NCBI RefSeq assembly: GCF_018282095.1
Contig: NZ_CP074126.1
Location: 248,001 to 312,000 of the forward strand
DNA length: 64,000 bases
Source of the DNA: Pseudovibrio brasiliensis
GTDB lineage: Bacteria; Pseudomonadota; Alphaproteobacteria; Rhizobiales; Stappiaceae
Direction: 5' to 3'
Shown here: positions 23,571 to 26,182 of the stretch, in pieces
How positions within the stretch are numbered: position 1 is the stretch's first letter
How the letters are laid out: the number at the start of each line of letters is the position of its first letter
Translations under genes and position numbers: made by a program
Notes under the pieces: generated by a model
What the model saw: only the letters and a program-made list of their open reading frames with translations
The model's database searches: none
What the model was told of the DNA's origin: nothing

Positions 23571-23870
23571 TCAGTCTTCGCCGTGATCCGTGCCGTCGTT
23601 CAGCCGTTCGCGCATTTCTTTGCCGGTTTTGAAGAACGGAACGAACTTTTCGCCAACTTCAACTTTCTGGCCAGTTCTTGGGTTGCGTCCCACGCGAGCA
23701 GGGCGGTTCTTCACGGAGAACGCACCAAAGCCACGCAGCTCAACGCGGTCACCGCGCATCAGCGCTTCGGTAACTTCATCAAGAATGGCGTTTACGATAT
23801 TCTCTACATCACGCTGATAGAGATGCGGATTACGCTCCGCAATAGTCTGTACTAATTCCGATTTAATCAT
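23571..23870 (-). CDS. ihfB: Integration host factor subunit beta
   Basis: 99 aa from ATG 23870 ([19 protein letters not shown]). DNA-bending protein, heterodimer with IhfA. The HU/IHF signature [21 protein letters not shown] with the DNA-intercalating Pro arm is intact. The start overlaps the sppA stop by 8 bases. IHF is also a cofactor for RpoN-dependent promoters, and rpoN lies in the same window. Confidence 0.95.
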
Positions 23871-24870
23871 GCTTTGCCCCCCCAAGTGCTGAGACTGTTG
23901 CCGCATCCGGAGCCTGCCAAACAGACACGAGACCGTCAAGCGGTAGGCTTGAATCTACGACACTTTTTGCTGTTTTGAGAAGTGAGACTATCAAATTCTG
24001 GTTCTCACTACCCAAAAAGCCTAATAAATTTGCAGGGAACGGGAGTGTCCGTTCGTCTGATTCTGGTTTCCAGTCGATAATTTTCAAATCACTGGAAAGC
24101 CCTTTTTTCTCAATAAGCCACTGATGCGCAGCCTGTTCGCCGCCAATCTCGTCGATCAGCTCCAGCCCTTTTGCCTGGTGTCCGGTGTAAACCTGACCAT
24201 TGGCGAGCTGAAGCGCACGCTCCTGGGAAAGGCCTCTGCGTTCTGCAACCAGCCCAACGAACCACATATAAGTATCGTCGATCAGGTCTTGCAAGGCTTC
24301 CTTCACTTCTGGCGTGGCTGGCTCATAAAAGTTTGGTTCAGCTTTCAATGGCGCGCTTTTGATCGCATCCATCTCAACACCAATCTTGTCGAGCAGGCCC
24401 TTCGCGTTACCGTATTGGAAGAGAACACCAATTGAGCCGGTCAAAGAGGTGTATTGAGCAACAAGGTGGTCACTGGCGATAGCAGAAAGATAAGCAGCGG
24501 AAGCGCCAAGCGTCGTGATGGACGCTGTCACAGGCTTCTTCTCAGCAATCTTGCGCAGCGCGTTATACAGCGCTTCACCGCCGGATGTGGTGCCACCTGG
24601 GGAATTAATGGAAACGATGACGCCCTGCACGGTGTCATCCTTGGCAATTGCTTCAAGCATTTCCAACTGGCGGCGATCATAGGTGATCGGTCCGCTGATT
24701 TCGATGCGAGCAATATGTTTTTCGGATCGGGCAAGCTCTCCAAGGCCGGTTGCCTCAGCGCCACCCCACAACAGCAATGCTGCCAGTGCTAAAAAACTAA
24801 CGACACGCCAGAATGAAACTTTACGTCTCAGGCGCCTACGATCAATAAGAACGTCACTGTCTAGACTCAT
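23863..24870 (-). CDS. sppA: Signal peptide peptidase SppA
   Basis: 335 aa from ATG 24870 ([20 protein letters not shown]); an upstream in-frame start at 24915 adds 15 unlikely residues. Membrane-anchored ([19 protein letters not shown]) periplasmic serine protease that clears cleaved signal peptides. [19 protein letters not shown] is the family motif, the nucleophile Ser is in [14 protein letters not shown], and the catalytic Lys is expected in the preceding strand. Short form, one protease domain. Operon sppA-ihfB-lapA. Confidence 0.92.
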
Positions 24871-25092
24871 GGGGTCTTCCCGGTCAAACTCAATTAAGCG
24901 ACTATAGGGAAACAATACCTAAGCTTTTGAATAAGCCAAGTGTTCTTTCTCTGCAGGCGGTAAAAACACGACCATAAATTAGGCTTTGTCACTGCCAAAC
25001 GGTTAATTTGGGGGACACAGCCTGTCAAATCTCCGAAATTTCTGGTTGCAATGCTAATCGACTAAGATGCCAGAGAAAATGGCGATACTATG

Positions 25093-25404
25093 TTATTTTA
25101 CGTTTTCCTCTGCTTCCATCAGGTCTTCTTCGTGCGCAATCGCACTTTCCATCAGGTGCCGCCACATCGTCTCGTAGGTTTTCTCGTTCAGTCCGGCTTC
25201 GCGGGCATGCGCCTTCACATTGCTGGCCACCTCTTCAACGCGGCTTTCAATGCGGGCAGCAAGGCCAATCGGTTTTTTGATTTCCGCAGCGCGGGTAATG
25301 TACGTCCAGCGCTCTGCAAACAGGGTGATAAGCTCGGAATCCAGGCGATCAATTTCAGCGCGGATCTGAGCCATGTTCTGACATTCACGAGCAGAGGTTT
25401 TCAT
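25093..25404 (-). CDS. Chorismate mutase (AroQ type)
   Basis: 103 aa, all-helical. MAQIRAEIDRLDSELITLFAERW contains the substrate-binding Arg and matches AroQ; KKPIGLAARIESRVEEV carries the second conserved Arg/Glu region. Converts chorismate to prephenate (Phe/Tyr branch), or may act as an isochorismate-pyruvate lyase-like enzyme. The ATG at 25374 would give 93 aa. It is downstream of a minus-strand terminator at 25514-25565 and stands alone. Confidence 0.85.
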   Translation of the reverse strand: MKTSARECQNMAQIRAEIDRLDSELITLFAERWTYITRAAEIKKPIGLAARIESRVEEVASNVKAHAREAGLNEKTYETMWRHLMESAIAHEEDLMEAEENVK

Positions 25405-25513
25405 TAGTTTTTTGCTGCCTATCGAATTGAATGAAGCGGCTGGGAAATGCCACCTTTTGAAATGTCATACCCGAAATAATTGCCGGGTCGCAACCGGCAT
25501 ATGATTATCGCAT

Positions 25514-25565
25514 AAAAAATCCGTTCCGTTCATCAGGAGGTGGGGGGGAGCTGAGAACGGAACGG
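25514..25565 (-). terminator. Strong minus-strand terminator with a C-rich, anti-Shine-Dalgarno-like loop
   Basis: On the minus strand an 11-bp perfect stem (CCGTTCCGTTC with GAACGGAACGG) is followed by ATTTTTTATG. The 23-base loop contains CCCCCCCACCTCC, which is complementary to ribosome-binding sites. Large CU-rich terminator loops are known from alphaproteobacterial small RNAs with CCUCCUCCC motifs; that comparison is inference. Confidence 0.75.
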
Positions 25566-25569
25566 GATC

Positions 25570-25623
25570 TTATCGGCCATGGGGCCAGTTGGACTTTTCG
25601 TCTTTTTTGGGCCACTGTTTCAT
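25570..25623 (-). CDS. Possible 17-codon small ORF
   Basis: Minus-strand ATG 25623 to TAA 25570 encodes MKQWPKKDEKSNWPHGR, very hydrophilic with two Trp. It lies between the structured RNA at 25639-25809 and the terminator at 25514-25565, inside one apparent transcription unit. No clear ribosome site precedes it, so translation is doubtful. It could be a leader peptide, but its two Trp are separated and the next gene is a chorismate mutase about 165 bases on. Confidence 0.28.
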   Translation of the reverse strand: MKQWPKKDEKSNWPHGR

Positions 25624-25638
25624 CGGTTGCTCTGAAAA

Positions 25639-25815
25639 CCGACAGGTTCAGTGATCTTAATTCTTGACGCGAGAACTAGGGGCATAGTTCATCGCGCGCT
25701 GTTGGAAACCCAAAGCCGATTGCTGCAAGGACGGCGTAAAACGGGTTTCCAGTTAGCCCTGCGGTTTCGGGCGGACCGCGAGGGCATTCCGAAGTTCTGA
25801 ACCTGTCGGACCTTA
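25639..25815 (-). ncRNA. Candidate structured RNA, junction of several hairpins closed by a 13-bp stem
   Basis: A perfect 13-bp stem (CCGACAGGTTCAG at 25639-25651 with CTGAACCTGTCGG at 25797-25809) closes about 145 bases that fold into further hairpins. On the minus strand these are GCCCT-GCGGT/ACCGC-AGGGC, TGGAAACCC/GGGTTTCCA with an inner GCCG/CGGC, and GAACTA/TAGTTC with the loop TGCCCC. A -10-like TAATAA (minus, 25822-25827) would start a transcript at about 25815, just before the stem. It does not match my knowledge of tmRNA, SRP RNA, RNase P RNA or riboswitches. 6S RNA has a similar size and end pairing but is rod-shaped. Strand is likely minus, not certain. Confidence 0.55.
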
Positions 25816-25821
25816 TTTTTG

Positions 25822-25848
25822 TTATTAGCCTCGACAGTTTCAAAACAA
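25822..25848 (-). promoter_or_regulatory. Candidate promoter for the structured RNA
   Basis: Minus strand: TAATAA at 25827-25822 as -10 and a weak TTGTTT/TTTGTT at about 25849-25843 as -35 (15-16 base spacing). Confidence 0.35.
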
Positions 25849-25899
25849 ACAGCACAGTTGAGTTTGAGAGAATGGGATACTCTCTTGCTCGCTGTGTAA

Positions 25900-26100
25900 A
25901 GTAATATACAGACGTTACTTGAAGATAAATAGAAATTAGAAATAGAAAATTTCGAAATATGACTCGATCTTAGGTGGTATATAGCAAATTAAAAGTTGAT
26001 GCTAAAAATACTCATCAATTTACTATTGCTTATCTATTGTATTTATTTTGATTAAAGTGAATTCATATTTACATTAATTAAAATTGAAGCCTTGTAAATG
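25900..26100. other. Strongly AT-rich non-coding stretch
   Basis: About 200 bases dominated by A and T (for example the stretches around 25930 and 26040) within the gap 25816-26155. No open frame of note and no clear repeat. It contrasts with the moderate GC of the neighbours and fits an accessory or regulatory region such as a promoter bound by a xenogeneic silencer. Confidence 0.5.
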
Positions 26101-26155
26101 CTGTAGATCACAGAATTTGCTTTATTCTTACCTTAGGGGAATGCGTTGCCGCATT

Positions 26156-26182
26156 AAAAAAGGGGCGTTTCCGCCCCTTTTA
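26156..26182. terminator. Bidirectional terminator after the SDR gene
   Basis: Stem AAAAGGGGCG (26158-26167) with CGCCCCTTTT (26172-26181), loop TTTC. On the minus strand it is followed by a T-run (forward AAAAA), so it serves the SDR gene; the plus-strand side also ends in T. Confidence 0.85.

Follow-up and report, generated by a model that had tools for sequence, protein, structure and literature searches.

The window analysed here is a 64,000-nt stretch of Pseudovibrio brasiliensis DNA (G000:C1:248001-312000 of the 6.03-Mb genome). It contains a real structured RNA gene of about 300 nt, encoded on the minus strand from 25785 to 25514 and comprising seven hairpins, the last of which is a terminator (Table 1). 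A single strong copy is present per Pseudovibrio genome. A reading of the letters of the window (the sequence-only reading) had proposed a gene for a structured, terminator-ended RNA on the minus strand, matching no known class compared, and this description holds. The "first fold" and the "terminator" of that reading are conserved jointly and form one unit.

In all 16 Pseudovibrio loci sppA lies downstream of the RNA on the same strand. The gene directly 3' of the RNA is chorismate mutase in 14 loci, where it lies between the RNA and sppA, and sppA itself in the two loci (L012 and L014) in which no chorismate mutase gene was found. The next start codon in the window is about 110 nt from the RNA. 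Another small hairpin, followed by a T-rich tail, is located between the RNA terminator and the chorismate mutase gene (25499-25481, minus strand). On the other side, a GGGGCG hairpin with a T-run at 26155-26182 is probably the terminator of the upstream short-chain dehydrogenase gene (judged by eye). In L015 and L016, the upstream sequence consists of the rpsA end and then a terminator (read by eye and compared with the rpsA end of the window), and among 14 loci from other genera, six have the rpsA end no more than 1.5 kb upstream of sppA. Therefore, the older order may be rpsA - RNA - sppA.

Table 1. Features of the RNA locus in window coordinates, listed along the minus strand
Feature	Position	Strand	Remarks
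Conserved AT-rich upstream block	25895..25954	-	candidate promoter region
5' leader of putative transcript	25786..25905	-	5' end assumed; no membrane-peptide ORF in the window species
Hairpin 1	25756..25785	-	loop CCGCCCGAA at 25774-25766
Hairpin 2	25704..25750	-	variable outer stem; invariant inner GCCG-UCCUUGCAGCAAU-CGGC at 25735-25715
Hairpin 3	25667..25697	-	loop UGCCCC
A-rich single-stranded linker CAAGAATTAAGA	25655..25666	-	seen in alignments; candidate chaperone site
Hairpin P4 (UCACUG...CAGUGG and inner stem)	25612..25654	-	competes with the 13-bp stem
17-codon ORF	25570..25623	-	not conserved; excluded from the RNA
Hairpin P5 (GAC-GAAAA-GUC)	25592..25602	-	weakly supported
Hairpin P6 (GGCC-CCAU-GGCC)	25575..25586	-	weakly supported
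Terminator unit	25514..25565	-	hairpin 25565-25521, loop CUCCCCCCCACCUC, U-tract 25519-25514
Chorismate mutase type II gene	25093..25404	-	downstream of RNA; Pfam CM_2, E 3e-18
sppA-like S49 peptidase gene	23863..24915	-	downstream of RNA; Peptidase_S49, E 4.5e-39

The fold is far more stable than those of shuffled sequences (z -5.57, 0/200; z -5.59, 0/100 in a second test), and the longer span 25905-25508 is also more stable (z -5.93). Single-sequence folds, from which the structure for the covariance models was taken, displayed hairpins 1 to 3 in all seven divergent sequences, and folds of the 3' halves displayed the terminator hairpin together with the P4 helix in 16 of 16 (both by eye). 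For hairpins 1-3, the alignment fitted to the model has 92.8% paired cells, and both-side changes occur in 24 of the 34 pairs. Against shuffle controls, which ignore relatedness although 10 of these 16 genomes are closely related, 57 cells with both-side changes were counted versus 20.4 (0/500 as high), and slid controls gave no more than 12. For the 3' half, the model-fitted alignment yielded 94.5% paired cells, both-side changes in 11/33 pairs and 31 such cells versus 8.5 in shuffles (0/500). The corresponding values from an unfitted MAFFT alignment of ten sequences were 89.0%, 9/33 pairs (1/500 shuffles) and 22 versus 7.4 cells (0/500). The number of further pair types was not above that of shuffles, 78, 261 and 464 of 500 being as high for hairpins 1-3, the fitted 3' half and the unfitted 3' half, respectively. 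Stem-preserving compensatory changes, which are the general criterion for a structured RNA gene and which had been set beforehand as the test across relatives, are thus plentiful here. RNAalifold on MAFFT alignments recovers hairpins 1, 3, P4 and the terminator but fails to find P6 and the hairpin 2 outer stem; one run joins hairpin 1 to hairpin 2 differently. We put the misses and the alternative joining down to shifted alignment registers.

The three internal hairpins of the sequence-only reading are present in the sequence, as is its terminator stem with a T-run and the loop CCCCCCCACCTCC. In the fitted alignment, hairpin 1 has both-side changes in 11/11 pairs and the outer stem of hairpin 2 in 6/8, while four of the five pairs of the hairpin 2 inner stem never vary; GCCGTCCTTGCAGCA is found in hairpin 2 of all 16 genomes. 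Hairpin 3 displays both-side changes in 6/10 pairs and TAYGCCCCTA in 16/16. For P4, 97.4 and 98.3% of cells are paired and 5 of 11 pairs have both-side changes; its loop motif YUCAGAGCA occurs in 14/16, and identity over the whole P4 loop is 0.83. P5 (82.1% of cells paired) and P6 (87.8%) have zero both-side changes and are the weakest parts of the structure. In the terminator hairpin, 96.4% of cells are paired and 6/15 pairs have both-side changes.

The loops are almost fixed. Among ten representatives, loop identity is 0.98 for CCGCCCGAA in hairpin 1, 0.96 for UCCUUGCAGCAAU, 0.94 for UGCCCC and 1.00 for CUCCCCCCCACCUC, the last over 13 columns, with one C present only in some species. Stem identity is 0.65 in hairpins 1-3 and 0.76 in the 3' half, and other unpaired positions have 0.60 and 0.65, respectively. 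Near-fixed loops on drifting stems are the pattern expected if the loops contact something else. Such a contrast, 0.94-1.00 in these four loops versus 0.65-0.76 in the stems, would be expected if the loops are the working parts.

Not every element of the sequence-only reading is upheld. It had described a fold closed by a perfect 13-bp stem, and this stem is present (25797-25809 with 25639-25651). As a closing helix it did not hold up, with 59.3% of cells pairing in relatives versus 59.7% in shuffles (MAFFT alignment). The covarying helix P4 shares positions with this stem, its own 5' arm (25654-25649) overlapping the 3' arm of the stem (25639-25651). The minimum-energy fold from the assumed start at 25905 uses P4 and lacks the 13-bp stem, and RNAalifold on a MAFFT alignment of 15 sequences gave 52 pairs, 23 with both-side changes, without the 13-bp stem among them. 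Considering the chance-level pairing in relatives, the overlap with P4 and the longer fold, the closed fold is most likely an artefact of the RNA ends that were chosen, reflecting where the RNA was cut. The 17-codon ORF exists, but as part of the RNA it was not retained: it is intact in 2 of 16 genomes only, the window's own and its nearest relative. Elsewhere the frame has a start codon in three genomes (lengths of 29, 28 and 20 codons), has none in ten and could not be placed in one.

The 5' end was approached through upstream conservation, expressed as mean pairwise identity among seven representatives of ten close species. A block at 25954-25895 displayed identities of 0.77-0.97 per 10-column bin, compared with 0.53 and 0.64 in the flanking bins, and a second conserved stretch was found at 26084-26045 (bins of 0.95, 0.75, 0.76 and 0.87). 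A promoter pattern scan scored none in either stretch. The -10-like TAATAA noted earlier is present on the minus strand (25827-25822), but its role as a promoter was not substantiated: the one weak promoter match near it (25843-25815) was not above chance (2.4 and 1.8 expected). The transcript may be about 390 nt if the nearer conserved block is the promoter, or about 280 nt if its start lies directly before hairpin 1.

Among 61 genomes searched by blastn, the RNA was detected in all 16 Pseudovibrio; the 45 genomes outside the genus gave only one 20-base match, within a coding region of G051 (by eye). Seven of the 16 sequences were used to build a covariance model of hairpins 1-3. Across 87 genomes of the family Stappiaceae, this model scored 102-161 bits in 16/16 Pseudovibrio and at most 26.3 bits in the other 71. 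Fourteen of these 71 had a match at E up to 1, and of the three matches inspected none was convincing. The 3'-half model matched 16 of the same 87 genomes at E up to 0.1, all of them Pseudovibrio, with 91-181 bits. In samples of the larger groups, searched with the stricter filters of Infernal by which weak matches may be lost, the hairpins 1-3 model found four Pseudovibrio and one other genome at 24.9 bits among 397 genomes of the order, and at E 1e-4 only the own genome among 385 of the class. When the surroundings of sppA were searched in 14 loci from other genera, the best match (14.8 bits, E 0.009) was on the opposite strand to that of sppA, lacked the fixed loops and is not convincing. 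A pattern scan of contigs detected 19 stretches, 12 from Pseudovibrio and seven from other bacteria. The latter were judged to be chance: the terminator loop is missing within 260 bases of all seven, most of which are situated in open frames. The hairpin-1 loop pattern occurred at 8 sites in the 45 genomes outside the genus versus 10 for the reversed control, and zero matches were obtained in the plasmids and phages searched. Across the genomes searched, the RNA is present throughout the genus Pseudovibrio and not convincingly in the sampled outgroups. In another genus of Stappiaceae, a strong hairpin that shares the loop UCCGCCCGAA was seen just before a truB-like gene, named by eye (L066 of G072, about 1501-1629).

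In four species (G008, G010, G011 and G012), the leader contains an ORF of 49, 46, 49 and 46 codons, respectively, which ends in VRPKP-stop within hairpin 1. The predicted peptides have a hydrophobic segment (Kyte-Doolittle 2.38, 2.06, 2.07 and 2.17) and no Pfam match at E 0.1. A ribosome-site match precedes all four, although the test for this site is loose and that of G010 is a weak AGGA; shuffled upstream regions passed the test for an ORF with all these features in 0, 0, 0 and 1 of 2000. By the same test the ORF is absent in 12/16 genomes, including that of the window. The four species group together in the sppA tree with a support of 94/85, just under the mark of the tool, and the branch of one of them is long. 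The ORF was therefore counted as one event, not four. Pairing is possible between the start regions of the ORF and the terminator loop of the same RNA (-15.8, -7.9, -12.1 and -18.0 kcal/mol), energies that stand without a shuffled control, and any ribosome site pairs to some degree. The RNA perhaps doubles as an mRNA in this clade. Upstream of the ORF in L011-L014, the loci of this clade, repeated motifs such as TTGCATATTGC and GTTGCAGATTGC have an operator-like appearance.

We think it moderately probable that the locus encodes a stand-alone trans-acting regulatory RNA of the genus, whose C-rich loops pair with mRNAs. A stand-alone gene is suggested because the gene directly downstream differs between loci, and because the search for an antiterminator partner gave none above chance in all 16 loci. 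Transcription would start from a minus-strand promoter upstream of 25786, perhaps near 25900, and would end at the intrinsic terminator 25565-25514. The seven hairpins would then present the nearly fixed loops CCGCCCGAA, UCCUUGCAGCAAU, UGCCCC and CUCCCCCCACCUC. The C-rich loops are able to pair with ribosome sites, as had been proposed from the letters, and above all the terminator loop would pair with purine-rich start regions of mRNAs and block ribosome binding. The A-rich linker and the U-tail, the only features relevant to Hfq, would serve an RNA chaperone. In the one clade of four species, the same stretch may in addition serve as mRNA for a small membrane peptide ending in hairpin 1. The genome comparison shows the conserved structure, the near-fixed loops, the terminator and the genus-wide presence, whereas the step from structure to antisense action is our inference, as are transcription, targets, mechanism and peptide synthesis.

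Candidate targets were sought as exact complements of the loops. Sites complementary to the terminator loop show no enrichment across the 16 genomes: among 121 sites, 16 are the RNA itself and 105 lie outside it, versus 97 for the reversed control. Those examined were the nine of the own genome, and none of the nine lies at a convincing translation start. For loop 2, 37 sites were detected, 16 of them in the RNA, leaving 21 versus 10 for the reversed control. Among the 15 of these 21 sites that were examined, the case picked for follow-up is a site in three close species that covers the ribosome site, 6 bases before the GTG of a 383-codon frame. The encoded protein resembles the 3-hydroxy-D-aspartate aldolase BhcC (606.5 bits, under the family cut-off of 690). 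In the own genome this gene is at L222 (G000:C3), with the loop-2 complement upstream of 211263. The gene was identified in nine of the 16 Pseudovibrio at E 1e-60, and seven are without it. Loop 2 pairs over 12 unbroken bases with its start region in five of the nine, the own genome included, with energies of -22.8 in three and -20.4, with a G-U, in two; pairing is nearly unbroken in one (-19.8) and poor in three (-14.9, -10.8 and -8.1), all given without a shuffled control, and the five pairing genomes are close kin. We regard the predicted pairing of loop 2 with the aldolase-like mRNA as a lead to a candidate target. Since seven of 16 genomes lack the gene and the match is weaker or lost in four of nine, this pairing cannot explain why loop 2 is fixed in 16/16.

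That no genus-wide conserved target emerged among the complement sites searched would also suit an RNA that serves as a platform or sponge to which an RNA-binding protein or the ribosome binds, the fixed loops being the protein sites. The invariance of loop 2 together with its four-pair stem goes beyond what mRNA pairing needs and points the same way. However, the loops differ from one another instead of repeating one motif, and the terminator loop is complementary to ribosome sites, so we consider such a platform unlikely.

The main cis-acting rival is a leader or attenuator of the chorismate mutase/sppA genes, in which the structure senses something and the terminator is the switch. The constant position of the RNA upstream of sppA, on the same strand and with the terminator between them in 16/16 loci, agrees with a cis leader for sppA genes, and so does the distance of about 110 nt to the next start codon in the window. 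However, the next gene is not constant, the best upstream partner of the terminator 5' arm is no better than in shuffles in 16/16 (35 to 100 of 100 as good), and the terminator loop is invariant although termination would not require this. An attenuator is therefore disfavoured, and we rate it as quite improbable. Least probable of all seems a primary role as an mRNA with a structured 3' end, coding for a small membrane peptide (a stress peptide or one resembling type I toxins) that has been lost in most species: the ORF, ribosome-site match and hydrophobic segment of the four grouped species are rare in shuffles, but the 12 genomes without the ORF still keep the RNA structure and loops, and the product has no Pfam counterpart.

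Within the preferred reading of a trans-acting RNA, the mode of action is most likely RNAIII-like, by analogy. A bolder version, which we hold possible but rather doubtful, is a master regulator of the RNAIII kind, confined to this genus of marine animal associates; Pseudovibrio have repeatedly been isolated from marine sponges (PMC11796379). Its four different near-fixed loops would each have their own target set, and in one clade the stop of the membrane peptide would lie inside hairpin 1 and its ribosome site would pair with the RNA's own terminator loop. If true, translation and riboregulation would be coupled within one molecule. A genus-wide RNA with four near-fixed loops points to a regulator needed by all these bacteria, and the membrane-peptide ORF, present in 4 species and absent in 12, would offer a view of the gain or loss of a dual-function RNA.

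No paper on such an RNA of Pseudovibrio was found by title in a literature search, most subscription journals lying outside it. The words sRNA, small RNA and non-coding are absent from the main text of an RNA-seq paper on P. brasiliensis (PMC11796379), and a word search of a paper on CCUCC-loop sRNAs of Rhizobiales gave no mention of Pseudovibrio (PMC3927594).

Judged by sequence, the RNA matches no described family among those compared, and no Rfam family reaches its cut-off at the locus. 6S RNA, which is similar in length to the first fold, had been named as a class to check: RF00013 has no match here at E 10, and the one 6S match of the genome sits elsewhere, at G000:C1:4006927-4007086. Atu_C10 (RF02497), with a C-rich loop in a terminator-like hairpin, gives a sub-threshold match at the 3' end of the RNA (27.3 bits versus a gathering score of 60 bits), which is the best Atu_C10 place in the whole genome (E 0.0074). 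This likeness is most likely chance. Sub-threshold matches also occur in four unrelated control genomes, and in a scan of the loci of 11 relatives, the own included, only the own reached E 0.5.

RNAIII of Staphylococcus aureus is about 510 nt long, is quorum-controlled and also carries a short ORF (delta-hemolysin). Compared only in how it works, the Pseudovibrio RNA resembles it as a long multi-hairpin RNA with C-rich loops, and in part of the text of PMC3927594 RNAIII is counted among the RNAs with at least partial anti-Shine-Dalgarno loops. Unlike Pseudovibrio, the host of RNAIII is a Firmicute, and the likeness is a functional analogy with no sequence relation claimed.

The alpha-r14 or cuckoo RNAs (NfeR1 of Sinorhizobium and the CcsR type of Rhodobacter) are likewise alphaproteobacterial and have several hairpins. 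Their loops, in the sections of PMC10746234 and PMC3927594 concerned, hold fixed anti-Shine-Dalgarno motifs on variable stems, and three fixed CCUCCUCCC loops of NfeR1 silence ntrB according to a passage of the former. In the Pseudovibrio RNA, by contrast, each loop has its own sequence and there are seven hairpins; CCUCCUCCC occurs 0 times in the window and in 0/16 RNA loci, so that membership in the CCUCC-type group, suggested by the sequence-only reading, is not upheld. The CcsR RNAs lie on one transcript together with the gene of a small protein, as an excerpt of PMC10253847 has it, whereas the ORF of the one Pseudovibrio clade is membrane-peptide-like, has no Pfam match and is not DUF1127. 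Fixed anti-Shine-Dalgarno loops on variable stems are the alpha-r14 pattern as outlined in part of PMC10746234, and this shared pattern is one of the points in favour of an antisense role of the Pseudovibrio RNA.
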